From contig JALQPE010001693.1 in NCBI GenBank assembly GCA_030407315.1, positions 1 through 64,000 on the forward strand: DNA of 64,000 bases, in the 5' to 3' direction. Position numbers and translations under genes: made by a program. This document shows, piece by piece, positions 546 through 42,404 of this stretch. Numbering within the stretch: position 1 is the first letter of the stretch; the number at the start of each line of letters is the position of its first letter. The notes beneath the pieces are model-generated. The model worked only from the letters and a program-made list of their open reading frames with translations, had not been told where the DNA came from and searched no databases. The stretch comes from Asparagopsis taxiformis (lineage: Eukaryota > Rhodophyta > Florideophyceae > Bonnemaisoniales > Bonnemaisoniaceae).

Positions 546-547
546 CT

Positions 548-7551: not shown

Positions 7552-10500
7552 ATGGCCGGAAGCGACACTGAGCGCGCTGCGGAACCAAAGGATACCGTCG
7601 AAAGCGTTGCAGAGAGACTTGCAACGACGGTAGGCGGTGATAAAACACCCTCCGGAGGTTCTGCTGATGGAGGGGCTCCGTCTGCAGCGGGAAGGGAGAC
7701 GGCAGATAGCCAGACACCCATTCAGGGAGCAGACGCTGCCATGATAGAGGCAGCAAAAACCCTTGGTGATATATCACCATCTGGGAAAAACACTCTACGC
7801 TTTCCATCTACTCCTGGGACGGTGAAATCGAAAAACAGGGAGAGGTCTAACGTCCGTGAAGGCGAGGGGAGTCCTGCTGGCATGGAAGCATCAGAAGAGT
7901 CTGTGATGGGGATTGACATCAACATTGTCGAATGCAGGACTGAACCTAAAATGATCAATCCGCTAGATGTTGCCAAACCGGAATCAACTTCTCGTCTTGT
8001 GCAGGAGGCCAGAGTGCGCGATCTGGTCAGCAAAATATCTACCGAGGGGTTTCTGGAAACTGGCACCCGAATGACCATCTGTGAAACAATGGGGTCAGAC
8101 GGACGGAAGAAACTGCAGTGCATTGATGGAGGTCATCGTATCAGCGCTTTGCAGTCGATTGTGGAAAACAAACCGACAGTTGCTGATCGATGGAGACTGA
8201 GGAGCATTAGCGTTGACTTCATCCGACCACCTGGAACCCGTGAAATGTTTCATCCTCTTGAAGTGATGCGAATATCGCAGAAGCTGAACGAAAAGACTCA
8301 TGACGTGATAGAAGTTTCTATTGCTGACCACGTCTGTACGGTCATGAAGTTCATGATGATGAAGGGCTTGATGAAGGCGAAGGTAAATGTGTGCACAAAA
8401 GTTGTAGTCGAGAACAAGGTCATTCCAGGTTGTCAGGAAGGAATCATGATGAAGTACGTTTCGATTGCGCAGGGCTTCGGAGACGTAAATAACCCGGCGT
8501 TCGAACATTGGTCAGCTATCCCAAGTCGATTTGCAACTGAAACTAGTCCGCCAGACTCGAAGAATATGCAGGGATGCACTGTGGACGTCCTATTCGCTTC
8601 TGCGTTTCGAAAAGCTTCGGTGGACACCAAACTTGTCATTCTAGAGCTCACTGCAATGTGGACGATGTGGAAACGTAGGAAAGGAGATGGTGGTATAAGT
8701 CTAAAGACATGCGCGCAAAAGTGGTGCTACAGCATGTGTGAAATATATGACATACTTGAGAAAGCTGTACGGAAAGAAAACTCCTGGCATTCCTCACCTC
8801 ATCCATGTTTCAGGAAGTTACATGAAGTACCGGAGCCAGGTGGACGAACACGAAAAACCATACGATATCGCATTTTGACTGTCCTCAAAGATTTCTATCC
8901 TTCCGACGCACCAACTGGGAGAGGTATACGTGCAGCATTGACGCGGTCTATGATGAAAGAAATCCGTTATGTGGTTTTCAACGGCCCAATTCTATCGGAT
9001 GACTCTCTCGACCATTCCGTCGCGCCTGAAATAGGTGTGCAGGAAAGGCGGACTAGGCGAAAATCCTTGGAAGGGAATACTGCACCTCAACCACGACAAC
9101 AATCCGCATCGTATGGTGATACTTCAAATGCTGCCATTGATCGCTCGGACGTGGTACAGAGTCCAAATGTACTTACCCAACAGCAGACACAGGGCAGTCT
9201 GGAAATATCGGATCGTGTTAACGCTGAGGTCGGTGCTGCAACACAGGTTGGTGAAGAGGCGACAGGGAAAGCGGCAGATTCCGAAAGCGCAAAGCAGGTT
9301 ACAACGGACCGCGCAGTGCCTACTGCGCCTACCGAGAACAATTCTTCGAAACCTGGAGATTGTGAAGTTGGGGATGTGTTGCAGAAGAACGTAGGAACTC
9401 AAGAGCTTGAACCAACTGGTGCAAATCGAGGAAGAAATGACCACGGTGATGAAAATGACCTGCAACAATCACCTAGCCCAGTGGCAGCCGGAAGTGCCAC
9501 GCTCAGACCAGAGCAGGGTGGAAAGTCGCCGGCGAATATGTCAGTTGGTCATCCAAGAACTGGTCGAGATGGTGAAGGAGGTCCTGAATCTAGGAAGAGC
9601 GATGGGTCTGGAACGAAAGATGTCCGCGAAGAATGTCCCGAACATTCTTCTGGAAGGACAACGGAGGACCCGATGAAAGGTGTACGAAATCAGGGTGATG
9701 GCACTGGAGACGCTATGTTATCTACAGCGGATGTCGGCCTACCTGTTTTACCTGAGCTGGAGGACACGGAAACACCTGTTACCAGTTCTACGCCTAGGAA
9801 GTTGATGAAAGCCAAGCACAGCAGTGGTTTCGTGCCCTTAAAGGCAAAGCCGAGGAATACGGAGACGCCGCCAATGATTCTACGATCCAAACGGAAATTG
9901 GTGGATGTCACCCCTCAAGAGGTTATTGACCTGGTGGGAGAGGATACCAGCAGGCCGCGGCAGAAGAAGAAGCAAAAGATGCGTGAAGACGCAAATTTGC
10001 AATCCGGCAAAGACGCTGCAGTCCACGCGGTTCAAGGAGGTCAGTATTCGGACAGGCAACAAAATGATGTCCCTGACAAAGATGTGGAGGAAGGTATAGA
10101 AGCGAAACTGCCTGTTATCATTCATCCCGACAGTCGAATGAAATACTATGTGAATGGGAAACTGGTCGATACGCTTCGAGCCGAGGTCGCTGAAGCAGCA
10201 GCGAGTGCCTATTCGGCACAAAATGTTTCCGCTGAGTTTCTCTCGAGGGCTTATTTCCGAGAGAAACGAAATGAAATAGACTTGGTTGGGTTTACAATTC
10301 TGGACGGAATATTCAAGTCTTCTACTACTGCAGATGCGATCCACGAACTGCTCCTTCATTTTTCTGCGTTGTTTGAGGAACGTCTCGAGGATGCCAAGAA
10401 GAACTCTGAATCCGGTGACACCCGCAGAGATCCGGACTGGACACCGTGGTGCATGGCTATGATGGATGGGAAAAACTCTGATGAAGAAGGTGAGAAGGGC

Positions 10501-11076
10501 AGAGGAATCTTTATAACAAAGCGGAAGAGCTTATGTGATGACCTCGAGGATAACAATAATAATCTCTATCGGAAGAAGATGATTGTTGAGCTCGGTCTAG
10601 GTATTTGTGCGGAAGGTTTGGAATTGAGGACTAGTGGGAAGGACCCGATGGCCTTCCCCAGCACTGGAACTACTTTAGTGCTGACTGGAGAGCGGACTAA
10701 ACCTCGTGCTGGACATACAGACTATGAAGTGGGAATCGATGAAGTTAACAGTCCCCCTTCTCCGCCATCCTACTTCATGATGTCAAGCGGCGCAGATGGA
10801 TTCGGCCTCGTGCTTGCACCCTACAGTCATGTCTGTTTATCCCATCCCAACAGAGAGTTATACAGAGTTCCAATGAAGAGGTGTGAAGTACCACCATATT
10901 CTGTTCTTGTCTGCCGAGGGGATGTTTATCACCACGAGGAAGGATTTGAGAGCAATAAGGGTCTTCAATACAAGTTCCCGATCCGATCTCACATATTCCT
11001 CAAAACTGAGCAGCATCAAAGTGAAGAAGGAGAATATGTCGTTGGACATTGGGAGGGCAATTCGAAATTGAAGTGA
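7552..11076 (+). CDS. ParB-like domain / 2OG-Fe(II) dioxygenase-like fusion protein (copy 1)
   Basis: An intact 1174-aa ORF. After a ~120-residue low-complexity head comes a ParB/sulfiredoxin-like domain (about residues 130-250) with its signature loop at D192-G-G-H-R196 followed by ISAL. Next is an alpha-helical stretch (to ~480) conserved in the paralogues, then a long charged, disordered linker with a RSKR basic motif, a SUMO-interaction-like 'VIDLV' near 790 and the basic cluster RQKKKQKMR. The C-terminal ~280 residues carry H1055-x-D1057 ... H1127 ... R1145, the order expected for a double-stranded beta-helix 2OG-Fe(II) dioxygenase. I infer a nuclear, DNA- or chromatin-bound oxygenase; the substrate is unknown. 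Three paralogues are in the window (12.2, 30.4 and 59.6 kb). An AATAAA follows the stop by 57 bp. Confidence 0.72.
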   Translation: MAGSDTERAAEPKDTVESVAERLATTVGGDKTPSGGSADGGAPSAAGRETADSQTPIQGADAAMIEAAKTLGDISPSGKNTLRFPSTPGTVKSKNRERSNVREGEGSPAGMEASEESVMGIDINIVECRTEPKMINPLDVAKPESTSRLVQEARVRDLVSKISTEGFLETGTRMTICETMGSDGRKKLQCIDGGHRISALQSIVENKPTVADRWRLRSISVDFIRPPGTREMFHPLEVMRISQKLNEKTHDVIEVSIADHVCTVMKFMMMKGLMKAKVNVCTKVVVENKVIPGCQEGIMMKYVSIAQGFGDVNNPAFEHWSAIPSRFATETSPPDSKNMQGCTVDVLFASAFRKASVDTKLVILELTAMWTMWKRRKGDGGISLKTCAQKWCYSMCEIYDILEKAVRKENSWHSSPHPCFRKLHEVPEPGGRTRKTIRYRILTVLKDFYPSDAPTGRGIRAALTRSMMKEIRYVVFNGPILSDDSLDHSVAPEIGVQERRTRRKSLEGNTAPQPRQQSASYGDTSNAAIDRSDVVQSPNVLTQQQTQGSLEISDRVNAEVGAATQVGEEATGKAADSESAKQVTTDRAVPTAPTENNSSKPGDCEVGDVLQKNVGTQELEPTGANRGRNDHGDENDLQQSPSPVAAGSATLRPEQGGKSPANMSVGHPRTGRDGEGGPESRKSDGSGTKDVREECPEHSSGRTTEDPMKGVRNQGDGTGDAMLSTADVGLPVLPELEDTETPVTSSTPRKLMKAKHSSGFVPLKAKPRNTETPPMILRSKRKLVDVTPQEVIDLVGEDTSRPRQKKKQKMREDANLQSGKDAAVHAVQGGQYSDRQQNDVPDKDVEEGIEAKLPVIIHPDSRMKYYVNGKLVDTLRAEVAEAAASAYSAQNVSAEFLSRAYFREKRNEIDLVGFTILDGIFKSSTTADAIHELLLHFSALFEERLEDAKKNSESGDTRRDPDWTPWCMAMMDGKNSDEEGEKGRGIFITKRKSLCDDLEDNNNNLYRKKMIVELGLGICAEGLELRTSGKDPMAFPSTGTTLVLTGERTKPRAGHTDYEVGIDEVNSPPSPPSYFMMSSGADGFGLVLAPYSHVCLSHPNRELYRVPMKRCEVPPYSVLVCRGDVYHHEEGFESNKGLQYKFPIRSHIFLKTEQHQSEEGEYVVGHWEGNSKLK

Positions 11077-11339: not shown

Positions 11340-11795
11340 GTTCACTATCCCCGGTAAAATTTTCAGTTCCTGAGAACAGGAGTCTGGCCGGGTATAAAGT
11401 TGGGTGGGTGTAGACCAAGTGCACCAACCCCATTGCCTGGGGGTACTCCGGATAACCTCAGCCAATGGCGTTGGTGCACCTGGCTTTTGGGAGGCCAAAA
11501 TAATACCGGGTATTATTTTGGGTCGGTATAGACCAAGTGCACCAACCCCATTGGCCGAGGTTGTCCAAACTACCACCGGCCAATGGCGTTGGTGCACCTG
11601 GCTTTTGGGAGGCCAAAATAATACCGGGTATTATTTTGGGTCGGTATAGACCAAGTGCACCAACCCCATTGGCCGAGGTAGCCGGATACCTCGGCCAATG
11701 GCGTTGGTGCACCTGGCTTTTGGGAGGCCAAAATAATACCGGGTATTATTCCTAGTTTCTCAAGCCAGGTGCAGTGCACTCATTGGCCGAAGCCC
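11340..11795. repeat. AATAATACCGGGTATTATT nested-palindrome array (array type 2)
   Basis: Three good units with inner palindromes starting at 11497, 11615 and 11730 (spacing 118 and 115 bp), plus a decayed unit at the left. Each unit is a nest of inverted repeats: CCAATGG outside, TTGGTGCAC/GTGCACCAA inside that, and AATAATACCGGGTATTATT at the centre. The array lies between two ParB/dioxygenase genes, upstream of the one at 12218. The flanks (11139-11339 and 11796-12217) show only AT-rich sequence and a pyrimidine-rich leader before the ATG. Confidence 0.9.
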
Positions 11796-12217: not shown

Positions 12218-15085
12218 ATGGCTCCTCGCACTCGCTCCAAACCCTCTGCCCCCGCCCCTGCTCGCGCTTCGACTCGCGGTCGGGCCTCCGCTCGCTCTCG
12301 CGCCCCTTCTCGCTCTCGCGCCCCTTCTCGCAGCCCTGGTCACGATAACTCTGTCACCGCCGAGGTTCAGTTGTCAGACTGTCCCAAAGCTGACCACAGG
12401 CTGTCTCCCTTGGATTTGCACAGACCCCCCCTATTCTCTCGTCATATTAGGGAAGGGAGAGTGCTTGAGCTGAAGGAGAAGTTCTTGAGGGAAGGATTCA
12501 CCTCCTCAATCTCCCGAATCCTTGCCTGCAAAATGCTCCTTCCTAGTGAAGGCAGCACAACCCCCACCCTTCAAACGTTTTACATCGATGGTGGCCATCG
12601 CGTTGCGGCTCTCCAGAAGTGCATTCGTGAAGACCCGGAAGGGCAACATCCGTATGCTGCTTCATTCAGGAACATCGATGTGGCTTTGATCAGGCGCCCA
12701 GGGACAGAAGAAGTTTCCGATGAGTACTTCACACCTTTTGAAGTACTCGGGCTGTCCATTCAAGCAAACACACTCACACATGATGTTGCCCTTGTTTCTT
12801 TGGCAGACCGAGTGTGTTCTGTGGTCCAACTGCTCACGACCAAGGACATGCTGGGTGAACCGAATCGGAAGTGCATTCAGGTCATCATGGACAGCCAGTT
12901 GTCGATATCGAAACTGGGCTACCAAGCCATCAACAAGCACGTGACTGCTGCGAAAGGCTTCCGGACTGTGAACAACAAAGCGCTTGAGTTCTGGAGTTCC
13001 GTACCGAGCATGTTCACCAAGGAAATTCTCGCTGCGGAACAGGAAAGGGCCGTTAAAGAAGGCCGTGACATCAACGACGATGTCTTCAAGCAGTCCGTAG
13101 ACATGTATGGCTGCAACATGGATCTCGTTTTCATGGCAGACTTCCGTCGCGGCTCGGAGTATCAGCAAAGGTTCATCTTGCTCATAACAGCTCTCTGGAC
13201 ACGCATGCGAGATCTGCGTCAGTTGAGTAGGACGACAAGAGGATTTGGTAATCCTTTCGTTCGTGTTTTGATTGAAGTTTTCAAGATGTCCGAGCCGGTT
13301 GCTGCTCACAAAAAGATGGAGCCTCCGCTCGAACATTTCTACTCCGAGCTCAAGAACAATGGGTCAGGAACCGAGACTGTTATAGCGAACAGTATCGCGG
13401 AGACCCTCCTGCACTTCAATACCGACGACAACAGCGGTACGAAGCATGCTCTCGTCTCCGACGAAATGTATGAGCAGCTTCGCTTTTCCACGGGCGTTGT
13501 GGACATGGAAGAAGACCAAAGGGTCATTGTTCATAATGAACAGCCATCTGAAGATGCGCCGAAGCCATCTACGCCCCAATCAGATGAGCCTTCTACCCCT
13601 TCTACCCGTTCTGGTCCTACTCCTCCTGCCCCTTCTACCCCTCCTGCTCCTTCTACCCCTCCTGCTCCTCGTGCTCATTCTACCCCTTCTACCCCTTCTA
13701 CTCCTGCTCCTACTACCCCTCCTCCTCCTGCCGCTTCCGTTCCCGCCCCTTCCACCCCTCCTGCTACCCCTCCTGCTCCTGCCACTTCCGTTCCTGCAGT
13801 TGAGCAGGCTCAAGGAACCCCTGATGCCACTGTGGCAGGTTCTGAGAAGCAATTGGGATCTGTTCTCCTCCGTCTCCCTCTCAATGCACCACCGCTTGCG
13901 GTGAATGAGCCAGTCGAGACACTTCGCAGGTCGAAACGGCAGAGAACGGAGAGTCTACGGGTTGGCGGCGACAGTCAGGCAGAGTTGGAGGTAGAAGAAG
14001 AGTCCGAAGAGCCCCTTCCGAAGCGCAGAAGACTGGAAGTTAACCGTACGGTTAAACGTTCAACCGAGGAGATTCCATTGTTCAGCGATGAGCAGGAAAA
14101 TCCCCTCCCCGACAGGGTAGTCGATGAACGGATTATGGATATTCTCCCGAACACCATACCGTCAGACTCTAGGGTCAAGTACTATATCGACAGCAAGCTG
14201 TACGAAACAATCCGACAGGAGATTTTGAGTGCAGCTGCTGCCGATATGAATTGTATAGCGTGCAGTGGTCCAGCTTGCTGTGCAGAGAAGTTCTTTGCAA
14301 CAGCTAGGTCAACTCTCAATCTCTTGGGTGCCCATGTACTCAGTGGTATCTTCCGTTCTTCGACTGTGGGCAACGCAGCACATGAACTGTTCACGTTCTA
14401 CGCCCAGAAGTTCAAACCTGTTCATTCTTCTGCTGAAGACAGTTCCAATGATCCCTGGCATCAGATTCGAAACAAGGGTGAGGTAACAGCAGAGCAACAG
14501 GCCTCTCGTTTGGGAAGGTTCTCTATCTCAAGGAAGAAGATTTGCGACGATCTCGAGCAGATGGATGAACATCAATTCAAGAACAAGATGATTCTCGAGG
14601 TCGGCAAAGCAATCTGTGCCGAGCTAATGTACTTGGGCCTAGGAATCCATGAGCCTGTGGCCTTTCCTAAAACCGGTTTACGTCTTTTGCTGACCTCTGA
14701 TGGTGCTCCAGATCAAGACTTGCACACAGACCTACCGGTGGTCATCAATGATTCCGATTTCCCACCTGGAAGATCGTACTTTCTGATGGCAAGCGCGGCT
14801 GATGGGTTCTGGCTTCGTGGAGCGTATTTCAGCCACGTCTGTTTGACGCGTGCAGACGCTGAGAAGTACAAGACGCCTGTTATGGACATCTACGTGCCAC
14901 CGTATTCTCTCTTCATCGGTCGTGGTGACTTCTACCATGGAGGCAAAGGATTCAGTAGTTCAGCGGAAAATCGCCTAACATATGGTCTTCCGGTTCGTTC
15001 TCATCTCTACCTTTTAAGTGACGAAGAAGAATTGGCGGATGCTATCGAAACAGTCAACTACTGGGATGCACCTAGTGCGCGATAA
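12218..15085 (+). CDS. ParB-like domain / 2OG-Fe(II) dioxygenase-like fusion protein (copy 2, cassette A)
   Basis: An intact 955-aa ORF starting in a pyrimidine-rich context (CCTTCAATGGCTCC). The N-terminus is Ser/Arg/Pro-rich, with a repeated SRAPSRSR. A ParB-like domain (about 55-185) has the loop D124-G-G-H-R128 followed by VAAL. A conserved helical region follows, then a Ser/Thr/Pro-rich linker (about 450-530), basic clusters RRSKRQR and PKRRR (near 601) that look like nuclear localisation signals, and a C-terminal dioxygenase-like domain with H836-x-D838 ... H907 ... R927-x-H929. The coding strand is markedly C-rich compared with the 7552-11076 paralogue. It is convergent with the methyltransferase/SET gene at 15933 and bracketed on both sides by arrays of the same TACCSGGTA palindrome. 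Confidence 0.75.
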   Translation: MAPRTRSKPSAPAPARASTRGRASARSRAPSRSRAPSRSPGHDNSVTAEVQLSDCPKADHRLSPLDLHRPPLFSRHIREGRVLELKEKFLREGFTSSISRILACKMLLPSEGSTTPTLQTFYIDGGHRVAALQKCIREDPEGQHPYAASFRNIDVALIRRPGTEEVSDEYFTPFEVLGLSIQANTLTHDVALVSLADRVCSVVQLLTTKDMLGEPNRKCIQVIMDSQLSISKLGYQAINKHVTAAKGFRTVNNKALEFWSSVPSMFTKEILAAEQERAVKEGRDINDDVFKQSVDMYGCNMDLVFMADFRRGSEYQQRFILLITALWTRMRDLRQLSRTTRGFGNPFVRVLIEVFKMSEPVAAHKKMEPPLEHFYSELKNNGSGTETVIANSIAETLLHFNTDDNSGTKHALVSDEMYEQLRFSTGVVDMEEDQRVIVHNEQPSEDAPKPSTPQSDEPSTPSTRSGPTPPAPSTPPAPSTPPAPRAHSTPSTPSTPAPTTPPPPAASVPAPSTPPATPPAPATSVPAVEQAQGTPDATVAGSEKQLGSVLLRLPLNAPPLAVNEPVETLRRSKRQRTESLRVGGDSQAELEVEEESEEPLPKRRRLEVNRTVKRSTEEIPLFSDEQENPLPDRVVDERIMDILPNTIPSDSRVKYYIDSKLYETIRQEILSAAAADMNCIACSGPACCAEKFFATARSTLNLLGAHVLSGIFRSSTVGNAAHELFTFYAQKFKPVHSSAEDSSNDPWHQIRNKGEVTAEQQASRLGRFSISRKKICDDLEQMDEHQFKNKMILEVGKAICAELMYLGLGIHEPVAFPKTGLRLLLTSDGAPDQDLHTDLPVVINDSDFPPGRSYFLMASAADGFWLRGAYFSHVCLTRADAEKYKTPVMDIYVPPYSLFIGRGDFYHGGKGFSSSAENRLTYGLPVRSHLYLLSDEEELADAIETVNYWDAPSAR

Positions 15086-15420: not shown

Positions 15421-15790
15421 ACCTGGCAGCAATTCCATTGGCTGCCGCTGCGTTCATGACAGCCAATGATAGTGCTGCACTTGGGCTGGCCACACCCAAA
15501 ATAATACCCGGTATTATTTTGGCATGGCAAAGCCCAGGTGCAGCAATTCCATTCGCTGCCGCTGCGTTCATGACAGCCAATGGCAGAGCTGCACTTGGGC
15601 TGGCCACACCCAAAATAATACCCGGTATTATTTTGGCATGGCAAAGCCCAGGTGCAGCAATTCCATTCGCTGCCGCTGCGTTCATGACAGCCAATGGCAG
15701 AGCTGCACTTGGGCTGGCCACACCCAAAATAATACCCGGTATTATTTTGGCATGGCAAAGCCCAGGTGCAGCACTATCATTGGACGTGGG
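15421..15790. repeat. AATAATACCCGGTATTATT nested-palindrome array, 114-bp period (array type 2)
   Basis: Three nearly identical 114-bp units have inner palindromes starting at 15498, 15612 and 15726. Each unit nests CCAATGG/CCATT(C)G, then GCTGCACTTGGGCT/AGCCCAGGTGCAGC, then the AATAATACCCGGTATTATT core. Because 114 is a multiple of three, several frames stay open on both strands; these ORFs are not genes. The array sits in the convergent gap between the ParB/dioxygenase and methyltransferase/SET genes. The stretch 15086-15420 holds only a trailer. Confidence 0.92.
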
Positions 15791-15932: not shown

Positions 15933-18900
15933 CTACTTCTCTGCAGTCCAGTAGCGCGATCCATAGTCAACGAATATCTCTTCCCCAGCTCGAACATCTA
16001 CTACAACCTGCGCTAGGATGAGATCAGGTTTTGCTACTGCATACTTGAAGTCGCAAGTAGGATTGACGTCTTTGTGAACTCGGAACTCTGCATTTTTTCT
16101 GCGTTGCACATTTGCAACTCTCTCCATTCCGTCAATGGTCCTACTGTCGTTGAGGTAGCTGCAGACATTGTATTCCGCTGGTACAAGATATATCTTGTCT
16201 ACCGGTGCTTCTTCTCCGATGACACTGGTCTCCATCTCCATGTTGAAGTTTTGGAATCTTTCACCAGTACAACCGAACCCGTCCGGTCCGTACAAGCGAC
16301 TGCGTTGCGGTTCATTCTCCCCAATCTTCCCGTATAAAATTGTCCCATTATACCATCCAACAACAGAGCCCCTCTCTAAATCTTCTGCGGCAAAAACCCC
16401 CAATCCTCCCTCTCGAACTGTCGATGCAGCAACAATAACGTTGTGAAAGGAGGCATCTACTGCAAGCATCATCTCAGGGTCAACGGAGAAAACCTTGCCT
16501 AAATCTTCTACGCCCCATTCATTCATTGGGACTTCGGCAAGTCTTCGGAGCATGCTTTGATCCCGCGCAACAGAGGAGACAAATCGCAACATATGCAGTG
16601 GTAGTGAAGATACCGACGGGAATCCATCAGGCGCATCACTTCGATGTCGAAGTCTTTCACTTCCTACATTGCTCCTTATCGAGTAATTCCATTCTTTGTT
16701 AGCGAGAATACTCGATATGTCATTTTTGGTTGCCTCCCCAAAAACTCCATCTCGACCTTGCCTAACAAAGCAATCCAGCAACAACGGCTGAGCTGATCCA
16801 TGGCATGTGGCGTCTTTTTCACATCCAATAAACTTGCGATACAGACCATCTCTCATTGTCATGCAAGCTATTGCAGTAGAATACGTTCCGGAGAATAGAT
16901 CTACCACAATGTCTCCTGGCTTTGAAAACCTTGAAATAAGCTCTCGAAGTATGGACAGAGGCTTCTGCTCCGCACGTAGCCTTTTGTCTTCGAAGTTCAA
17001 TGACTCACCAGGTCCGAGCTTTGGGCAGTTGTCGATTGCGTTCACGTACCCTGGATGTCGTGAAAGGTCACGGTTATGCAAAGAATAATCAACCATTTCA
17101 AACGCGGCAGCTCCCATCCCACGTTTGAAACTGTGCACAACAAACTCGTGAATGTTGTGTAATGAACACGATTTGTTCATTGGGTTTTGGATGAATACGT
17201 AGGGACGACGGCTTAGAATGAGAGGAACATCGTCTGTACGCATGGATTGTTCCCCGCTTTCTGCATTTTGAAGAGCTTCTCCCCACCCAACCAACTGTTT
17301 GATACTGGAAAATATCAGGGCATGTCCTCCAGGGCGCAGCATTCGAGAAATGTCCTTTCCAGTACGAAACATTTGTGCGCTATTGATGTCATCATAGTCT
17401 GAATTGGTCTTGCCTTTCTCCCTCCGCGTGTTGAAGGGTGGATCGGTGAGCACAAGTTGTGCTTGTCCATCAATAGTATTCCCTGAAAGCATGCCAATGG
17501 AATCAGTGTTAACCTGGTGCACTAACCTCGAGGCTGTACAGTTGTAAGCCACGCAAAATCTCTTCATGACCTTTTTCAATTGCACAATATGATCCGGTAC
17601 CCCCTCTTCCTCACCCACTGCCTCCGCTGACGGTGTATCCTCCGCAACATCTTGCATAACCGTGTCCATTGCGGACGAAGCCCTCCCATCCATGCTGGAT
17701 GTATACTGGGATCCAGAGTCATTGGTAGGTTTCCTTCCACCTGTACCTAAACGGCGAGTGCTGTGCTGCATTGATTCATTCGACTCAAGACGATCTCTTT
17801 CTCGAGAAAGAGATCTGGATGCTGCGTTGCGCTGTTCAGTCTCGTAGAGAATTTTCAAGTCGCAGACATCAACTGGCTTCACACGCATTTCACGGTTCCA
17901 GTTCTTCCATACCTTGAGTCTTTCGTGACCATCCAATGCGATGGATTGTTCTATTCTTGCTTCGATGAAGGCGTTCAATCCGAACCGGTCAGGCTGATGG
18001 AAAAATTTAGTGCGCAGCCCTTCCATCTGGTTCGTACTTGATCCGAATACATCAATGCCTATCATACAGTCATACACAGACACTAGTACGGCTTCTGTCA
18101 AAGACCTCAACCTTGCATCAACAGAGATATCCAAAGTGCCTGGATAACCTGCATCCTCGCGGAGTTTCACTACCGGGGACGGAAGCAGAAGATCTGAGTA
18201 GTGGTCAGGATGTGCCCACCCGTCAGTACGATTAGCAAGACAGATGAATTGGAATTTCTCAGAGTCGAAAACCATGTATGGGCGACACATCATGTAGGCG
18301 CTTTCGAAGCCCAGAATCATCGCTGTTGTATCCCAGGCAGACATGACCCTTTCCAAAACGACACCCACAGACTCTCCGTTTGCTCTTGTGCGCTGGAAAG
18401 GGGCGAATGTAGAAGTCTCTGTATCCCTCCCAGTTCTACGACGCTTCCTACCCCGGCGAATGGGTGCATTTCTGCGTCTAGTGAGGGCAATGTGCACAAA
18501 TGAAATCATAAACATCAGCCTTCCAAATACTTTGTCTTCTTCTGTTAATGTTCTACCCTGTGCACTTCTTCCAGAACGAAAATACTCACAGGTGAGGACT
18601 TCGCGACACAATGGAGAAGCAATTTCACCACTTGTAGACATCCCAAACAACTGCTCGCCGACTGATGCTCTTTTCTCGAGAGATGTGGGAAACTCCTTCA
18701 TCGCAAAATTGTTCTGAACTTCCACCGGCCTTCCCCATACAATACAGAACAACTGCCACAGACAGCGAACCATTTTGGGATTGGGTTCTTCTATGCGACT
18801 GTAGGGGCGAAGCACACGAAGAATTGACAAGCAACTCTCGTACTGTGGCTGCCTCAGCACAGTTTCTGCCAAATCTTCGCGCTGAGATCCCACGGCGAGC

Positions 18901-19442
18901 CATCGCCTAATGGATGGCATATTCACGTCGCGAATTGTAACCATGCTTGAGCTTCCTTGTTTTTCACCTGCGTTTCGCTCCCAGTACCCATCTCTAAGAT
19001 CCAAAGTAAGATTCAGGTACTCAATGAAAGTCATCCTCTTCTGCCTGGATGCCATATCGTTCGCGTTTGATGCTTTCACACTATCTAGAAGGAAAGCAGC
19101 ACTTGTAATCGGAGATATGTCGACTTCTTCTTCAATCATAGGAACAGTGAAATCACGCGGAAGCTCACCGTTCTCTATGAGCTTGATTACAGCTTTCGAA
19201 CGATGCGCACCATCCAGCACCTCTACCTCACCGGCAATGATCCGACCGGTAATTGGGTTGTTGTCATTGTAGCCGTAAACCTGAATGCTCTCGGCAATAA
19301 CATCGACGTGCCTGTAGTCGATTTCTCGAATCTCGACATATCTTTTGATCTTGAATGGGTCGATGTGCAATAGCCCATTGCGCCGCTCACCATGAAGGGG
19401 ACGCCCAGAGGTGCTCGCTGGATTTCTCTTCTCAGAGGCCAT
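15933..19442 (-). CDS. ParB-like / beta-class DNA N4/N6-methyltransferase / SET-domain fusion (cassette A)
   Basis: An intact 1169-aa ORF with three catalytic-type modules. (1) An N-terminal ParB-like domain, about 25-100: 'LHIDPFKIK', then 'ITGRIIAGE', then the 'LDGAHRSKAV' loop. (2) A DNA amino-methyltransferase of the N6_N4 (PF01555-like) circular order: motif IV D667-P-P-F near 'LVLTDPPFNTRR', and the SAM-binding motif I later at about 846-852 ('VVDLFSG'), followed by 'FIGCE'. (3) A C-terminal SET domain (about 1000-1166): 'GLGVFAAEDLERG', 'GWYNG', 'CSYLNDS' near 1098 and 'GEEIFVDYG' at the end. I infer that one nuclear protein places adenine-N6 or cytosine-N4 DNA methylation and lysine methylation. 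The middle region (100-560) is conserved in the paralogues but unassigned. It is divergent from the Tudor-like gene and convergent with ParB/dioxygenase copy 2. Confidence 0.82.
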   Translation of the reverse strand: MASEKRNPASTSGRPLHGERRNGLLHIDPFKIKRYVEIREIDYRHVDVIAESIQVYGYNDNNPITGRIIAGEVEVLDGAHRSKAVIKLIENGELPRDFTVPMIEEEVDISPITSAAFLLDSVKASNANDMASRQKRMTFIEYLNLTLDLRDGYWERNAGEKQGSSSMVTIRDVNMPSIRRWLAVGSQREDLAETVLRQPQYESCLSILRVLRPYSRIEEPNPKMVRCLWQLFCIVWGRPVEVQNNFAMKEFPTSLEKRASVGEQLFGMSTSGEIASPLCREVLTCEYFRSGRSAQGRTLTEEDKVFGRLMFMISFVHIALTRRRNAPIRRGRKRRRTGRDTETSTFAPFQRTRANGESVGVVLERVMSAWDTTAMILGFESAYMMCRPYMVFDSEKFQFICLANRTDGWAHPDHYSDLLLPSPVVKLREDAGYPGTLDISVDARLRSLTEAVLVSVYDCMIGIDVFGSSTNQMEGLRTKFFHQPDRFGLNAFIEARIEQSIALDGHERLKVWKNWNREMRVKPVDVCDLKILYETEQRNAASRSLSRERDRLESNESMQHSTRRLGTGGRKPTNDSGSQYTSSMDGRASSAMDTVMQDVAEDTPSAEAVGEEEGVPDHIVQLKKVMKRFCVAYNCTASRLVHQVNTDSIGMLSGNTIDGQAQLVLTDPPFNTRREKGKTNSDYDDINSAQMFRTGKDISRMLRPGGHALIFSSIKQLVGWGEALQNAESGEQSMRTDDVPLILSRRPYVFIQNPMNKSCSLHNIHEFVVHSFKRGMGAAAFEMVDYSLHNRDLSRHPGYVNAIDNCPKLGPGESLNFEDKRLRAEQKPLSILRELISRFSKPGDIVVDLFSGTYSTAIACMTMRDGLYRKFIGCEKDATCHGSAQPLLLDCFVRQGRDGVFGEATKNDISSILANKEWNYSIRSNVGSERLRHRSDAPDGFPSVSSLPLHMLRFVSSVARDQSMLRRLAEVPMNEWGVEDLGKVFSVDPEMMLAVDASFHNVIVAASTVREGGLGVFAAEDLERGSVVGWYNGTILYGKIGENEPQRSRLYGPDGFGCTGERFQNFNMEMETSVIGEEAPVDKIYLVPAEYNVCSYLNDSRTIDGMERVANVQRRKNAEFRVHKDVNPTCDFKYAVAKPDLILAQVVVDVRAGEEIFVDYGSRYWTAEK

Positions 19443-20178: not shown

Positions 20179-21570
20179 ATGCAAGACCCAACAGACTTTG
20201 TCTCCGAAGGATCAGTCATTGAAGTAGAATGGAGTTTACGAACGAGAGGAAGGAAACAGAAAAAGATTTGGTGGGGCGCCAAAGTTTTGAGTACTGCCAA
20301 GCCGGACGCGTCCGGAGAACATCGTTTGACTGGAAACTTGTTTGTTACGCTGCAATATCAATCTGAACACGGTTTCGACCAGTCAGTCTCTACAGCAAAA
20401 TTATTCAAGAACAACAATTCGCTGCTGGACATTGACTCTGGAAACATGCTACGTTGGAGGTTTGGAGAGCAACTAGCACTAGAGCAGACGATCTCGTCTG
20501 CGGGTGAAGACAGTTTCCATAAAAAAGACTGCAAACAAAACATGTTGAGTCGATCCAAGTCCGAGCCGCGCTTAGTTTGCGATGAGAGTCCTCCTGGTCC
20601 TAACATCAATGAGGACATATCCAAGCTGTTTCAAAAGGTATCCTACCTCGAAAGGCAGATTCTCAACTGTCGCGGTTCATCAAGCGCTACTGGACCCATC
20701 TTCGGAAACATTGTGTGCGACTACCTGTTCCAGAGAGTTGGCTTAAAACTGGACAAACCCCTGTCCTCCAAAATCACGAAGTCTGAAACAGGCCGGGAAG
20801 TGAGCTCCTTGGTGCAAGACTATGTGACGGCAAGAGCAGATTGCTCGCTTGAACAGTTTTTACAACTTTCCAGGCTATGCGAAGAGAAGAACAACCCAAA
20901 CACAATTTTCCTGCCGAGCGTCGAGGCGGTTCGAATTTCAACTGGGAGAGATAAAGAGCTATCGATCCACTTTGGAACATACTATGACCTCTGCAATACT
21001 TTAGCTCCTTCCATGTCTACATGCACGAACTCTACTATCCTCAAGTGGAAGAAAACACGACACGATTCTGGGTCTTCTGTCATTAGAGTTTTGGGAACTC
21101 TAGCAGACAGTGCTTCAGAAGATTCTATTCCATCTACAAAGGCTGTTCTTATTGGTTCCTCTTTATACAGGAGATCTGAAAACATGAGTAGTACTGTCGT
21201 TCTTACTCGAGAATCTGATGAATACGACTATGTCAATTGCAGCTATTCGTATCCTTTGGAAGCTCGCTTCCTCCCAAGTCGAGAAATGCAGGAGAACTTT
21301 GAGCTGCCGGACAGCAAAAATTTCAAACTGGCCAACTCGTTCTCACTGACCTGGAAACCTGTTCAAGGCCCTCGTCCATATGGAACTTTCGAGCGCGTTC
21401 TCAAGAATGTTGTGTTGAGAACTGCATACTTGAACCTCCCAGCATGCATTTTCAGTGGACACACCATCTGCAGCGAGCTAGACACAATTGGACATGACGT
21501 TATCGTTGGACAGAATAGTTCCCCTGTCGATGCACCTCATCCTACCGTACACGATGTCGCCTCCGAGTAA
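20179..21570 (+). CDS. Conserved cassette protein with possible N-terminal Tudor-like barrel (cassette A)
   Basis: A 463-aa ORF, paralogous along its length to the gene at 53084-54445, so both are real genes. The N-terminal ~90 residues ('VIEVEWSLRTRG', 'KKIWWGAKVLS', 'FVTLQYQSEHGF') have the alternating hydrophobic and Trp pattern of a small beta barrel such as Tudor or PWWP: an aromatic WW after a charged turn, then a strand with an aromatic. If correct it could read methylated lysine, but this rests on pattern alone. The remaining ~350 residues (shared 'DKPLSS(K/R)(I/M)TKSE', 'RADCSLEQF', 'PACIFSG') match no family I recognise. The gene is divergent from the methyltransferase/SET gene and convergent with the coiled-coil gene, an arrangement repeated in mirror image at 51-58 kb. 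Confidence 0.7.
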   Translation: MQDPTDFVSEGSVIEVEWSLRTRGRKQKKIWWGAKVLSTAKPDASGEHRLTGNLFVTLQYQSEHGFDQSVSTAKLFKNNNSLLDIDSGNMLRWRFGEQLALEQTISSAGEDSFHKKDCKQNMLSRSKSEPRLVCDESPPGPNINEDISKLFQKVSYLERQILNCRGSSSATGPIFGNIVCDYLFQRVGLKLDKPLSSKITKSETGREVSSLVQDYVTARADCSLEQFLQLSRLCEEKNNPNTIFLPSVEAVRISTGRDKELSIHFGTYYDLCNTLAPSMSTCTNSTILKWKKTRHDSGSSVIRVLGTLADSASEDSIPSTKAVLIGSSLYRRSENMSSTVVLTRESDEYDYVNCSYSYPLEARFLPSREMQENFELPDSKNFKLANSFSLTWKPVQGPRPYGTFERVLKNVVLRTAYLNLPACIFSGHTICSELDTIGHDVIVGQNSSPVDAPHPTVHDVASE

Positions 21571-21719
21571 AACGTTTTCTATCTTTTCTAGATGGGTCTA
21601 CAAGACTGTTCAGAGTTAGCCAACCTCGATTAAGTCGATGGTATCCATCGATACATGCTCCGTATCTTTCTGGCCTGTTCCTTCGTCCAGGGACTGTCTG
21701 CATTCTGTAACAATGATTG

Positions 21720-21880
21720 CCCTCCACTTGGCAAAATATCCCTGAAAATAATACCGGGTATTATTCTTAGGTTTCGTCCAGGGATCGCCTGTAGTCGGTA
21801 CGAATAATTGCCCTCCACTTGGCAAAATATTCCTCAAAATAATACCCGGTATTATTTTCCGCACTACTCTGCCAGGTGGA
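21720..21880. repeat. Two units of the TACCSGGTA palindrome family (array type 2)
   Basis: Two ~91-bp units (inner palindromes starting at about 21745 and 21836) each carry GCCCTCCACTTGGCAAAATAT followed a few bases later by AATAATACC(G/C)GGTATTATT. They lie in the convergent gap between the Tudor-like and coiled-coil genes. The remainder of 21571-22177 shows no gene. Confidence 0.85.
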
Positions 21881-22177: not shown

Positions 22178-23701
22178 TCAATCTTCCTCATCAAGGAAAA
22201 CTTCAACGTAGCTTTCACTCCCATCTTCTTCATTTCCATGTCCGCTATCCTCCTCAAACGCGGTACTACGCTGTTCCAAGTGTTGTTCATCGAATTTTTC
22301 GTTAGTAATTGTCAGTACATCTTCGCAGAGATGCCTCTTACAGATTCGCTCACTCGGCAACATCGCCTTTCCTAATTGTTTGAGCTCGTCTTGTACACTT
22401 TCTTCGAAGGTCTGACCTGATTGTACCTTGAAAATTCCTAGAATCCCGGAAGCGATTGCATAGACAAATCTGAGTGAATTGCAGGAACGTCGCAGGAAAA
22501 CCATTCTACTCGTGCATTGAAGGAAAGCAATTGCAGTGTTCAGGGCTACCTCCAGGATATTGATTCTCCTTCGAATCATCCTTTTGGCCACACATCCCGA
22601 TATCTCGACTTCGTACTGAATGATGACAACCATCTCTTTCCGCTCAGCGATGAATTGTATCAAGATCTCGGAATTCTTGTCATCCACAACTTTCCGTTCC
22701 TCAGGCCTTAGATTTCCGTTGGTCACACGGGTATCGGGGATAACATCCATATCTCGAATGAGATCGTGAGTTGGAAACTCGAAAGTGATAGAGGCGTCCG
22801 TTTCCAAGACTAGAGCGAACCCCAGTTCGACAAGGAATCGATGGCGCACCTGCTCTCTAGACTTGTTCAGGAAACCGAGCACCTTTGTCAGCGCAACTTT
22901 CGTAACAGCCAAAGATATTTCACGCTTGCTCAACTGTCCACCATTTCCATCTGTTTTCCTCCGCTTCCTAGCCCCTCCGTCAATGCTTCCTGCAGGCTGG
23001 TTTCGGCCATCGCCAGTGGCACCATAAACAACTTCTTCGATTATTTTGTCCGGAATGTACTTGTTCTCCTTCCAGACGTTGAACGCATTCGAATCGCGTC
23101 CAGAGCTCGAGCCTTCCACTGTACGGCCTGTACCCGACTTTTCCTTCTGAATGTTCCGCAGGAGAGACATCACCACTTGGAATCGAAGCTCGATGTTGTT
23201 CTTTCCGGTATTGGATTGTAACACATCTCTCTTGTCATTGCTCTGCTTCGCAAACATCATTGCAGAGAGCAACCTGCACCCACGGAGGTCGTAGATTCCT
23301 TGGTTGGTGTAAATTGTCGCCCCAGCATCAATCTTGTCGACCAGCAAAGGTACAACAGTTCCAAATACTGCACACAGAAAATTGTAAGAAAACGATAGTT
23401 CTGCTGACTGCGAGATGCGCAAACGGTCCCTGTCCTTGTCAGTCATCCCCTTCTTCGAATTGCCCTGACTCTGCTGTAATAAACCATCACAGATGTCTTT
23501 CACACCCTGTAATTCCGTTACTATAAACTCGACGCGACTCATCAGCTTTTCGATTTGCTGGCGTTGGGACGTTCGATCATCGTCGATTTCATCCATCCTC
23601 TCCCCAATACGACGAACTTCCCCAGTCACTGTCCTGAATCCCTCTCGAATAATCCCTGCGAGGCAGTCGATTGGATTTTGCTCTCGACGCTGAGATTCCA
23701 T
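22178..23701 (-). CDS. Conserved cassette protein with N-terminal coiled coil, unknown family (cassette A)
   Basis: A 507-aa ORF paralogous over its whole length to the gene at 51282-52808 (508 aa). Residues ~10-75 form a heptad-rich helix ('REGFRTVTGEVRRIGERMDE' onward) that suggests a coiled coil, followed by the shared 'KGIVDGLL/KDICDGLL' region. The middle carries a basic ARKRRK cluster that could be a nuclear localisation signal, then 'REISLAVTKVALT' and 'FLNKSREQVRHRF', both conserved in the paralogue. The C-terminus is acidic. I do not recognise the family. The start is the ATG at 23701, about 300 bp downstream of a CAGTAAATTTACTG array; the same array type also precedes the paralogue. 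Confidence 0.7.
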   Translation of the reverse strand: MESQRREQNPIDCLAGIIREGFRTVTGEVRRIGERMDEIDDDRTSQRQQIEKLMSRVEFIVTELQGVKDICDGLLQQSQGNSKKGMTDKDRDRLRISQSAELSFSYNFLCAVFGTVVPLLVDKIDAGATIYTNQGIYDLRGCRLLSAMMFAKQSNDKRDVLQSNTGKNNIELRFQVVMSLLRNIQKEKSGTGRTVEGSSSGRDSNAFNVWKENKYIPDKIIEEVVYGATGDGRNQPAGSIDGGARKRRKTDGNGGQLSKREISLAVTKVALTKVLGFLNKSREQVRHRFLVELGFALVLETDASITFEFPTHDLIRDMDVIPDTRVTNGNLRPEERKVVDDKNSEILIQFIAERKEMVVIIQYEVEISGCVAKRMIRRRINILEVALNTAIAFLQCTSRMVFLRRSCNSLRFVYAIASGILGIFKVQSGQTFEESVQDELKQLGKAMLPSERICKRHLCEDVLTITNEKFDEQHLEQRSTAFEEDSGHGNEEDGSESYVEVFLDEED

Positions 23702-24009
23702 CTTCCGTCAAACTTCTCCTCTCGTTCCAATCGCAAAGTGTCACTCCAGACGATTTTCCTGCAACAAGAATGCTAGCAATAGTAACAAATAATGCCAACT
23801 ACTCTACTCATATCCTCGGAAAACGACCGATTTTCTCCTACCTTTTTTGTAACGGTCATTTCCATGTGACCATGCATCCTCTACACTTCTCACTACTAGT
23901 AGCTTCAGAATAGTTTCCTCTCTTCTCTACTTGAACTCACATGCGAACACATTGTACAACCCTATCCTGGACAACTATTGCAACATTGAATCTCAGAAAA
24001 TACCAATCA

Positions 24010-24375
24010 CCAATTACTATCAAGGCAGTACTTGCAGGCAGTACAATTCACTGCCGGAGCCAGTATATTTTACTGCCTGATTCTAATGCCAGGTCATTTG
24101 CCAGGGCAGTACTGTACGGCAGTACATTCCATTGCAGAAATCATCAAAAATCACTGCATTGCACTACTGCCCTGTGGTACCAGCAAAAATTACTAGAATT
24201 TGCTATCGTACAGTACTGCATTCTGCTACATACCGTACTGCCAGGAAATTTTGTATTTTACTGCCTGCGGCACTAGAACTGAAAAAATTAAAATAGTAAT
24301 TTTACTGCCTCAGCCACTACATTGCTCAGGCAGTGATTTTTACTGCCTCAGGCAGTAAATTTACTACATTTTTTG
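24010..24375. repeat. CAGTAAAATTTACTGCC palindrome array (array type 1, central copy)
   Basis: A run of GGCAGTA and TACTGCC words, including TACTGCCTCAGGCAGTAAA, forms a row of short overlapping palindromes. It lies upstream of the coiled-coil gene (start 23701) and downstream of the broken transposase (end 24550), so it may mark a boundary between cassettes. The flanks 23702-24009 and 24376-24549 hold no gene. Confidence 0.85.
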
Positions 24376-24549
24376 ATCTCAAAATCAGTAGTGATAGAAT
24401 AGAACATATTTTCTCACAGGTTTTGGGACAAGGGACTTAAGTATGGCCAATGTCAAGGTGGATGTATGTGACGGAAACGCTACAATATGAGTAAGTTTGT
24501 TTACGGGAAGTAATATGGTAGAGAAGCTTATGTACTAGACCCTAGAGTA

Positions 24550-27500
24550 TTATGCAGTCCTTGGCGGATATCCATCTTCTCTTGCAAAGATAGAGAAGGA
24601 ACCACCATCTATAAACGAAGGACCTCCATGCGTAATTCCTCCATTCGAAGTGCGTTGCTCCACAGAACATAATGAAGGGCTACAATTGTGGAGGAAACCA
24701 ATCTTACGAACCCCTGAAGTGAGAGGGAGAAACCAGGAGCCGGAATCGGTGTTTGGAGCAAACGTAGTGGGGGAGGACTTCTGCTTGATAACTGGAAGAA
24801 CAATAGCGTGTGGTAGAGACAGGTTTTCCTGGTGAGATTCGTCTATGCAAACGTTGAAGCAATGTTTCCATCAATAGTCAGGTCAAACACGGTGGTAACA
24901 GCCCAAAAAGAAGGCGAACAGGTCTTCTGTAGAATTCTAGAAGACGGGGAAGCTGAGTAGCAAGCTTGTACTACACAGCCAGAAGCTATTTCTTGTGGCT
25001 TTGAAAAGTCCCGAGACGCAGCAGAGGGCGAAGCTGCACAGGCAGGGTGGGCAGAACTGAGACGTGTTCCCTTGGAAGGTTTTCCACGAAGCATGACTGC
25101 ATCCGAATTCTGCCCACAGGAAAAATCCTGCTGTGGTAATGAAGAGGGAATTCCTGTCCACGAGTAATATGAATATGGAGAAGAGAAGAATGGTAAAGAA
25201 GACCTATTCAAATGTTAGAGAAGGGTTTCTTGACAGACTTCATGCAGCGTACTAGCCGGGAGGTTCTCCATGGGTTTACAGTGCGCCCGTCCGAATAGAA
25301 CACGAAGGAGAAACCGTTTAGAACGTTTTCTCTCCACAGATGCTGGAGTAGAATTGGAGAAACTTTTCAAAGCAAGATGGAGGCTTCCTTTCCAATAGTT
25401 TCCGAGTGCCGCTAACATAGCATCCAACTGTCTGTCAGCACCTCCGGAATGCTCTAGACCTCGTTTCATTTGTTGATGTGTTGCTTCGAATGATAGCTCA
25501 GCTACCTGGCGAGCGTGTCCGAGCAGAGGAACAGTGTGTTCAAATGCCTCAATGAGACGGTGCAAGTTTGGCTTATTGTCAAGAATCTTCCTTGCCCGGA
25601 ATCCAGCAGTCTTGTTTTCCATCTCAATGTGGTCATTATCATTCGTTACTATACCTTCTGTCTGCATCTTCCGTTTCTTCGAGACCGCTGTGCTCCGCTG
25701 TCTGGTAGGAACAGTCTTGAGTAGTTCATCCACTAGAGTAGCATATTCTTTCGATAGCTGCTGCAGACGACGGAGACCGTTGTGCGCAGAATTCCCTGTA
25801 GCTCTCTGTACTGCCTCAGAACCGTCGATATTTTTTCGTGGTAGGAAGTATGTAGCTGCAGAAATAGAGGACAGGAGACGAACAAGTTCTAGAGACAGAT
25901 GACGTTGCTCTTCAGAAGCCTGGAGTGACCTTGAACCGCTACCTTCGGATGACCTTGTAGTCTGCGATTGGAATTTCAGAGAAGACCTGAAGCAGTGTTC
26001 GGCGCCGAGGAGAACTGCAAATCTGTCCGAGATTCCCATTGTATGAGTTTCACCTGCGTTGAAGTTATATATCCTGTTCTGATTTGCGAGGCCCAATACA
26101 CGGAGGGCATCCACCATGAACCTGTCGGCCAGCCTTCTCACACCATCATTAGGCAAGCTTGAAAAAGCATTGTCCAGAGCATCCTTTGCCAGTCCGTGGA
26201 GGAGATGGTCAATTCCAACAAACGTCGAACGGTATGGGTCCAGAATAGCAGGCACGACAGGGATTCGTAGACCATCGTTTCCGAGTGGTGTCCCGGTTGG
26301 AACCAGCCCTTTGGACCTAGCTTCATGAAGTAGTCTTTCAATGAGATGCAATGGAGTGTCTGTGATATTTTGCACTGTTCTCAAACCCAGATACTTCAAG
26401 ATGTTTGCAGAACTTTCCGATGACTGAACAGCAGCTGTTCGCTCGGATGTGCGAAAGTGTGTATCAGAGCTCGAATGTAAACGGGTGTCCTAGCCAAACT
26501 GCGAGTTCTTCCCATATTTCCCCCCTCTTACAAAGAAACACAAATGGCATGGGCAGTCTGCGTTGTGCCCCATGACATCCAGCACATGAGAACAGGCAGG
26601 ATAATCCGATACGAAACCAATAAAGTCCAGGAAAATTAGACATTCATTGCCGTCTGGATCGACATCACGAAACCCCGACGTACATCCTTGAATAATGTCT
26701 CTAGAGATATGTCGAAGGATATGGTTTGCACTAACACCAGGACCTGTGACACCGATAACGCGCACAGCAGAACTGTTCCGGCGACAGTCCAGCGGAAGAC
26801 CCATTATCCAGCGGAAGACCCATTGGGAGCGTATAGCATCCTCCAGCACTCCCTTTCTTACCAGAGGCTTCATTGAAGTCATCGCAGTATAAAAGAAATG
26901 GATAGACGTAGTATGTGGTACCGCAGCTGAGAACCCCACGGAGATGTGTAGGATGAAAGGGGCTGGAGCTCGTGCCTGGTTTCAATAACTTGACATTATT
27001 GATTGCACGAGTTCCGCCGACAACTTTGTAATGCCCTTCAGAGTTGACGAGAAAGAGCAGTTTTTGTGATGGGCCTGGCGGTCCGGGAGAGCTGACAACA
27101 AGCCCAATGAAGAACTGTATACCACAATTTTGAGTAGGGTTGCACTCAGGACTGGGTGATAAAACTGTCAGGTGATCACCCGGCCGAGCATATTCCCGGA
27201 ACGACTCTTTCTGAAGGATGAAGGCGGACCCATATGAATGCGGGGAGACCGAAAGCCTGCTATGAAATGCGGCACCAGAGTTAATCCACGAAGAAGATGT
27301 GAGAGCTTTGAACGACTCATGGCTGGAAGATAGTGATTCCTGTTGGAAAAGGGAACTGAGAGTAGGATCTAGAGAAGAGGCGTGCTGCCCTGATGTGACA
27401 TGCAGTTCCACAATACTACCACCGAAAGGAGAAACGAGAAAGCCGTCTTTTACCGCCTCCGCCCTCATCGTGTAGTTTTGTCCTTTCAAGGAGTACTCTC

Positions 27501-28611: not shown

Positions 28612-28914
28612 ATCTCGATAACCTGGATTGAGGTAGCACCTAGCTGCAAACAGCTGTTTGGAAGGGAGGTAAACGCCGGACGGCTCTATATTATGAGGAT
28701 ACAAATCTCTATAGTCTATCAATCTGTAGAAGAACGAAATTGGAAGGGGAGATCTCAGAGCTGACCGTTACAGTCGTTGCAGAGAACATGTTCTCTATTT
28801 CCATGGAAGCCAGGAAATAGGGCAAAGTACTGATGAGTACACATGAAGACTGAAAACTTCAAAGAATGACATAGTTTTTACCAGAATCGTAATTCATCCT
28901 ATAGTGTTGACTTA

Positions 28915-42388: not shown

Positions 42389-42404
42389 ATGAGGGCCGAT
42401 AACC

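Follow-up and report, generated by a model that had tools for sequence, protein, structure and literature searches.

What would a red alga do with a single polypeptide that joins a ParB-like domain, a DNA amino-methyltransferase and a SET domain? Such a protein, MTSET1, is encoded in a 64,000-nucleotide stretch of Asparagopsis taxiformis DNA (assembly GCA_030407315.1, contig JALQPE010001693.1, positions 1 to 64,000; hereafter the window). Our analysis establishes its gene, at the level of sequence, as intact and conserved cargo of a high-copy, CACTA-type giant DNA transposon, element A. A diverged paralogue, MTSET2, lies in a second element of the same window, element B. A first-pass annotation, made from the letters of the DNA, was right as far as the domains went, and had missed the CACTA-type transposon around the gene, the paralogue, a partner gene (PO) and arrays of palindromes.

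The annotation had described MTSET1 as one uninterrupted frame of 1169 codons carrying the motifs LDGAHR, DPPF, VVDLFSG, GWYNG, YLNDS and EEIFVDYG. This description holds: the frame begins with ATG, and all of the motifs were found. Since 20 dinucleotide-Markov shuffles (24 kb) reached at most 214 stop-free codons, a chance open frame is ruled out. Sequence profiles also bore out which domains it has, in what order and at which positions. In Pfam, N6_N4_Mtase (PF01555) matched with an expect value (E) of 1.2e-13, exceeding its curated cut-off, and SET (PF00856) with E 2.2e-5 and 25.3 bits against a cut-off of 22.4, while all NCBIfam matches fell under their curated cut-offs. Both MTSET proteins show the hallmarks of a beta-class methyltransferase, namely a PF01555 match with motif IV ahead of motif I (DPPF, then D(L/F)FSG). 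The catalytic tyrosine of SET is present in both as well (Y1160 of MTSET1, in an invariant (V/A)DYG), and a profile of the SET region (A5) gave partial matches to KMT2D/KMT2C, EZH2-like and SETD8 chains, the best with E 0.0014.

The annotation had also proposed a search with PF02195, which returned nothing at E<1, and the likeness to ParB comes instead from PHROG families, phage proteins and profile-profile alignment. Residues 38–131 of MTSET1 match PHROG 1033, 'ParB-like partition protein' (E 6.3e-5), and residues 11–106 match phrog_4272 (E 1.6e-6). The first 240 residues found seven phage records by tblastn, all from Leptospira phages and all within residues 28–106 (best E 1e-4); five of the seven are annotated as ParB-like or ParB N-terminal. 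Aligned by hhalign with a profile of four of the matched phage proteins, the N-terminus scored a probability of 96.8 over 87 columns. Those four are themselves weakly ParB by Pfam (PF02195 in one, HTH_ParB in two, all under cut-off), and a comparison with viral ParB-methyltransferase proteins failed (see below), which is why we call the region 'ParB-like'. Its loop, of the DGxHR type with a conserved arginine, reads LDGAHR in both MTSET copies. By these profiles MTSET1 is confirmed as a three-domain protein, in which an N6/N4 methyltransferase follows a ParB-like N-terminus and SET comes last.

MTSET2 repeats this architecture. Both of its Pfam domains are above cut-off (SET at 27.6 bits against 22.4), and its N-terminus matches the same two PHROGs (E 0.003 for phrog_1033, 1.7e-5 for phrog_4272) and, weakly, five plasmid records, of which the best has E 4e-3 and one carries the annotation ParB N-terminal. 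The two proteins are 43.7% identical over 1,142 aligned codons, and the motifs DGAHR, DPPF, FSG, WYNG, LND and DYG are invariant between them. Identity is highest in the SET (55.5%) and methyltransferase (54.5%) regions, followed by the ParB-like region (41.3%), the middle (37.9%), the pre-SET spacer (37.5%) and the linker (21.5%). A Nei-Gojobori script written for this analysis, with no formal test attached, gave a proportion of synonymous differences (pS) of 0.80, which is saturated, and a nonsynonymous proportion (pN) of 0.39. Because synonymous sites are saturated at this pN, and the SET and methyltransferase regions are best conserved and the linker worst, all three regions appear to be under purifying selection, a pattern in keeping with a functional protein that has long been under such constraint. 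The window holds one more methyltransferase gene of this kind, a third and divergent one (47683–50376), which seems to be interrupted where element B begins; its translation lacks a DGxHR loop, and no SET domain precedes the break.

The limits of element A follow from its termini, both of which recur on other copies. Searches of the alga's own genome gave 352 or 315 candidates, depending on the end; for each end 40 were scored and 30 loci inspected. The left end, beginning CACTACTGTG at 535, was exact in 29 of 30 loci (window included). Upstream of these 29 stand 27 distinct 15-mers; the thirtieth locus begins at a contig end. The right end, CAGTAGTG at 24393, was present in 27 of 30 loci, mostly with different DNA beyond it (two pairs share a flank); of the three exceptions, one lacks the seed word and two lack the exact terminus, one of the latter at a contig end. 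The termini, CACTACTG...CAGTAGTG, are of the CAC/CACTA type. Transposons of the CACTA/EnSpm clade make target-site duplications of 2–5 bp; the candidate flanks here are TA/TA and TA/TT in two other copies with both ends, and AA/AT in the window copy.

Subterminal repeats and a transposase-like gene complete this picture. G[GA]CAGTA/TACTG[CT]C motifs occur 49 times in the window against 11.6 expected under a Markov model, clustering at 501–2000 (19), 24001–24500 (11) and 50001–51000 (13), with the remaining six elsewhere; the right and left subterminal regions of element A share a 25-nt inverted and a 21-nt direct match. The transposase-like protein matches nothing in Pfam at E<1. Its motifs follow the order D, D, C(2)C, H(3-4)H, E, which has been described for the clade of CACTA/EnSpm, Plavaka and Transib (in the cited passage of PMC12730594), and its assignment to the CACTA/EnSpm clade is by motif order alone. 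A frame-broken second transposase copy lies on the minus strand directly past element A (24553–28722). Coding sequence makes up 69% of element A, in the order transposase-like (+), PO1 (+), PO2 (+), MTSET1 (-), S463 (+), C507 (-). Reversed, this becomes C(+), S(-), fusion(+), PO(-), the order found at 51282–62727 in element B, the left end of which was placed from the window sequence and from the point where methyltransferase homology stops, at 50376.

Both genes are intact in every copy scored in the 141,494,207-base assembly. For MTSET1, all 40 scored copies are open, 99–100% identical, on 40 contigs and full length (one minus its last residue), and for MTSET2 all 40 scored are likewise full length and open, and 100% identical; for the PO2 C-terminus, all 120 scored are 97–100% identical and 119 have no stop. 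The copies scored are the best of 3,787, 3,828 and 4,115 first-look candidates, respectively, and the counts are lower bounds. We dropped the reading of MTSET1 as a host gene on account of its multiple copies and the transposon termini. We also dropped a phage or bacterial origin of the contig, given the CACTA-type and copia-like elements in the window and the phycobilisome genes on other contigs of the assembly; phycobilisome proteins (PF00502) match the assembly at 13 places, and contig C469, which accounts for 11 of these, has the look of plastid DNA from a red alga.

If MTSET1 binds DNA, a candidate address lies in the gaps between the genes of both elements. The palindrome TACCSGGTA occurs 16 times in the window, against a mean of 0.16 and a maximum of 2 in 100 shuffles, and all 16 sites are intergenic, in four gaps of element A or two gaps of element B (Table 1). 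In element A the core extends to AATAATACCSGGTATTATT, exact at 8 of 10 sites and with two mismatches at the other two, forming a palindrome of up to 27 bp. In element B it extends to TTTACCSGGTAAA-like forms that alternate with a second palindrome of ~39 bp. That the core is common to both families and the flanks differ is as expected if binding specificity diverged along with the protein. Throughout the assembly, TAATACCSGGTATTA was found at 2,365 places against none for the pattern read backwards, and TTTACCSGGTAAA at 6,822 against one; one array comprises 25 units. Convergent 3' ends enclose two of the four arrays in element A and one of the two in element B, so the arrays are not simply promoters, and a purely promoter role was dropped. 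Three further palindromes were noted: the second family of element B, CTTACAGCAAAGTCATCG..., with seven copies at 58731–59135 and 63512–63781 alternating with TACCSGGTA sites; a 70-nt near-perfect palindrome with 35-nt arms at 2236–2305, upstream of the transposase-like gene; and a single 19-nt core palindrome at 560–578 of IMG/VR contig L003 (8,260 nt), the sole viral contig with it in the scan.

Beside the arrays lie PO genes, which encode putative partners. PO1, PO2 and PO3 have an N-terminal loop of the DGGHR/DGSHR type, and their N-termini are weakly ParB-like (hhalign 28.8 to the phage set and 4.0 to MTSET). At the C-terminus, H217, D219, H288 and R308 (A3 numbering) are invariant in all four window copies, that is, PO1 to PO3 and one further piece. 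The pattern HxD...H...R is that by which 2-oxoglutarate (2OG)-Fe(II) dioxygenases hold their metal and 2OG, and at the level of this motif the C-terminal region resembles these enzymes; a profile search of the Protein Data Bank with the region gave no matches. A third PO-type copy appears to be split, with a ParB-like piece at 30482–30880, a dioxygenase-like piece at 45735–46607 and other elements between them. On either side of this copy (29053–47395) stand palindromic repeats in inverted orientation; they are up to 98% complementary, and their sequence differs from that of the TACCSGGTA arrays.

Table 1 Positions of the features of elements A and B in the window.
Feature	Position	Strand	Description
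Element A	535-24393		Giant CACTA-type DNA transposon, 23,859 bp, termini CACTACTG...CAGTAGTG
Left subterminal repeat region, element A	540-1700		GGCAGTA/TACTGCC motifs; 19 of 49 motifs in 501-2000
Transposase-like gene, element A	3143-6844	+	1233 aa; ADDF514, GDYPA600, CHSC620, HARGMH651, VEELLFE907
Palindrome array, element A	7140-7263		2 TACCSGGTA sites
PO1	7552-11076	+	1174 aa; ParB-like N-terminus (IDGGHR), C-terminal HxD...H...R region
Palindrome array, element A	11388-11750		3 sites, 118-nt units
PO2	12218-15085	+	955 aa; PO1-type gene
Palindrome array between PO2 and MTSET1 3' ends	15426-15773		3 sites, 114-nt units
MTSET1	15933-19442	-	ParB-like / N6-N4 DNA methyltransferase / SET fusion; 1169 aa, ATG start, stop-free frame
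MTSET1 SET domain	15960-16406	-	Residues 1013-1161; PF00856
MTSET1 DNA methyltransferase domain	16806-17459	-	Residues 662-879, DPPF then DLFSG; PF01555 (N6_N4_Mtase)
MTSET1 ParB-like region	19050-19361	-	Residues 28-131, LDGAHR at 76-81
S463 accessory gene	20179-21570	+	33% identical counterpart at 53084-54445(-)
Palindrome array between S463 and C507 3' ends	21682-21858		2 sites
C507 accessory gene	22178-23701	-	40% identical counterpart at 51282-52808(+)
Right subterminal repeat region, element A	24000-24393		11 of 49 motifs in 24001-24500
Element B (start only, within window)	50376-64000		Begins CACTACGGTG; 13 of 49 subterminal-type motifs in 50001-51000
C508	51282-52808	+	Element B counterpart of C507, by homology
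S453	53084-54445	-	Element B counterpart of S463, by homology
MTSET2	54950-58426	+	Element B ParB-like/methyltransferase/SET protein; 1158 aa; PF01555 2.3e-16, PF00856 4.1e-6
Palindrome array, element B	58682-59174		4 TACCSGGTA sites and 4 long palindromes
PO3, element B	59636-62727	-	ParB-like and dioxygenase-like, in two frames here
Palindrome array beyond PO3, element B	63485-63821		2 TACCSGGTA sites and 3 long palindromes

Taking these observations together, we regard MTSET1 most likely as a self-addressed chromatin writer that counters silencing, a reading we hold with moderate confidence. The ParB-like domain would recognise, as a dimer, the element palindromes with their TACCSGGTA core. 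The beta-class methyltransferase would then methylate element DNA, at N6 of adenine more probably than at N4 of cytosine, and SET would methylate a histone lysine on the nucleosomes there, placing both marks at one address. The neighbouring PO proteins may visit the same class of site and remove an opposing mark, in a role of opposing or resetting. The net effect would be to keep element chromatin permissive and to counter host silencing, as VANC does for VANDAL transposons of Arabidopsis, with different enzymes. That MTSET1 couples DNA amino-methylation to histone methylation, as the first-pass annotation had proposed, is a reasonable inference from its domains.

In favour of this reading, the architecture and the order of neighbours are common to two families with saturated synonymous sites, and the four best among the solved structures nearest to the methyltransferase are all adenine-specific (DpnA twice, CcrM and MboIIA). 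N6-methyladenine (6mA) co-locates with trimethylated lysine 4 of histone H3 (H3K4me3) and permissive chromatin in several eukaryotes, as described in the cited part of PMC12695648, and a writer of both marks would therefore be sensible; that text nowhere uses the terms 'red alga' or 'Rhodophyta'.

Several points weigh against it. The function of MTSET1 is predicted from its sequence, and the effect may be either permissive or silencing. The usual SET motif is NHS; the two copies have NDS and NDC, with the asparagine kept and the histidine replaced by aspartate. Pfam ParB_N has no match at E<1 in MTSET1, and the comparison of its N-terminus with six viral ParB-methyltransferase-type proteins failed (hhalign probability 0.2). 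The dioxygenase-like partner is recognised by a motif, and the PO proteins have no Pfam match at E<1. Two structure models are unusable, that of the SET region, made with AlphaFold2 on two sequences (mean predicted local distance difference test score, pLDDT, 27.5; predicted template modelling score 0.17), and that of the PO2 C-terminus, made with AlphaFold (mean pLDDT 38); built on very shallow alignments, they speak neither for nor against the folds. The arrays are tied to the ParB-like domain by co-occurrence, the gap between MTSET1 and S463 holds no TACCSGGTA site, and the palindromes were placed on element copies within the window, the genome-wide figures being places in the assembly.

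Parts of this arrangement have precedents. Among 7,879 and 7,980 candidates, the MTSET1 protein and a two-copy profile found MTSET1 itself (P0001) and nothing else; PO2 had no relative among 8,000 candidates scored, and scans of viral contigs with MTSET1, A1 and A3 confirmed none. Searched by itself, the methyltransferase region found 339 phage records, with a match over at least 80% of the region in 168 of these, and a profile of the methyltransferase core found four loci in genome contigs and seven in viral contigs. When five of these 11 loci were scanned by Pfam, all had the methyltransferase, three had ParB_N and none had SET. The three viral open reading frames with both domains resemble MTSET1 in placing the ParB-like domain before the methyltransferase, but are only 411–457 aa long, and none of the five scanned has a SET match.

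Further precedents come from algal transposons. The cited passage of PMC12477816 describes a 1104-aa protein with ParB-like and N4C/N6A methyltransferase domains in the Ectocarpus transposon Sola1-1_Ec32, and reports ParB-methyltransferase transposon proteins from green, red and brown algae. Like element A, Sola1-1_Ec32 is a giant DNA transposon that carries both domains in one long protein, and its authors likewise propose self-modification; unlike element A, Sola1 is not CACTA-type, and the passage mentions no SET domain (PMC12477816). The annotation's statement that no protein with this domain order has been described therefore stands in part: the triple fusion was not found among the open-licence papers listed, as judged by titles and abstract openings, whereas its ParB-methyltransferase half had been reported, in that passage, as cargo of algal transposons. 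What MTSET1 and its elements add to that precedent is a predicted SET domain in the same chain, a dioxygenase-like partner and candidate target arrays.

For these additions, too, there are parallels. HarbingerS and MuDR transposons of Phytophthora carry a SET histone methyltransferase gene as cargo, but belong to other superfamilies, and the cited passage mentions no ParB or DNA methyltransferase with them (PMC12730594). TET/JBP dioxygenases, which are of the 2OG-Fe type, travel in fungal transposons including Plavaka and EnSpm, with a proposed role in escape from silencing (same passage of PMC12730594); unlike these, the PO dioxygenase-like region, known at motif level, is fused to a ParB-like N-terminus. 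VANC is encoded by VANDAL transposons and sequence-specific, its targets being fast-evolving tandem repeats in non-coding DNA, and the element arrays resemble them in having a shared core, family-specific flanks and tandem dynamics, whereas the parts of PMC5735166 cited here describe no ParB, methyltransferase or SET in VANC. In bdelloid rotifers, N4CMT is likewise a captured bacterial amino-methyltransferase joined to a chromatin module; its chromodomain reads a histone mark, as described in the cited part of PMC8885841, whereas in MTSET1 the SET domain would be the writer of such a mark, with the site chosen by a DNA-binding domain.

The same bdelloid enzyme lends weight to a fair rival of the permissive reading, in which MTSET1 would write repressive marks, by which the element would hold its own copies in check or switch off competitors sharing its sites, a form of copy-number or exclusion control. 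N4CMT deposits N4-methylcytosine and is proposed, in that part of PMC8885841, to reinforce silencing together with H3K9 methylation, and the weak SET matches of MTSET1 take in KMT2 (H3K4) as well as EZH2 and SETD8 types. The many near-identical copies in both families are, however, unlike effective self-restraint, and we consider repressive use improbable.

The arrays may also be unrelated satellites or nested foldback elements, with the fusion acting without a sequence address. They are indeed tandem and variable, with 25 units at one locus, and the palindromes on either side of another copy, a degenerate one, differ from them in sequence (29053–29914 and 46867–47395). Yet the TACCSGGTA core is common to two families whose proteins are 43.7% identical and whose flanks differ, and it recurs in equivalent gaps beside a PO gene in both, so that this explanation seems doubtful to us; it overlaps the other alternatives, and the likelihoods we give them are not meant to sum to one.

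Less probable again is a role as a transposition factor, in which binding or nicking by the ParB-like domain and methylation would time or license excision after replication, SET opening the chromatin only locally. In Bacillus cereus, a protein that fuses ParB to an adenine methylase reportedly nicks DNA (cited part of PMC5512222), and the arrays are not confined to promoters but also occupy gaps where the 3' ends of two genes converge; they are internal, however, and the termini carry a different, GGCAGTA-type repeat, which is the target expected on the transposase side. For a chance or misassembled fusion of separate genes we found nothing in favour. Two diverged copies share the fusion, and all 40 genome copies scored for each are open and full length; at the sequence level this refutes the explanation, to which we give a negligible probability.

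The remainder of the window holds other repeats. A copia-like long terminal repeat retrotransposon (38401–42563; RVT_2 and rve) has direct repeats of 157 nt at 38401 and 42407 that share 98% identity, and is flanked by inverted repeats (35993–36622 and 43571–44585; 88–99% complementary, ~7–8 kb apart). Several minisatellites with 43-nt, 24-nt and longer units occur in one stretch at 33166–35311.

The preferred reading, of a self-addressed writer that counters silencing, is directly testable, since the gene is intact in all scored copies of each family and a candidate target is present. More tentatively, the elements might possess a self-contained epigenetic addressing system, made up of a writer (DNA-site reader, bacterial-type DNA methylase and histone methylase in one chain), a matching eraser-like protein with a ParB-like reader of its own and thousands of co-evolving palindromic addresses; each family would use its own variant of the address to run a private chromatin state. 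If the preferred reading is right, one polypeptide would write on both DNA and histones at a sequence that it recognises itself, a natural counterpart of what epigenome editors aim for, and this may help to explain how two families of giant transposons came to have so many near-identical copies in a genome of 141 Mb.

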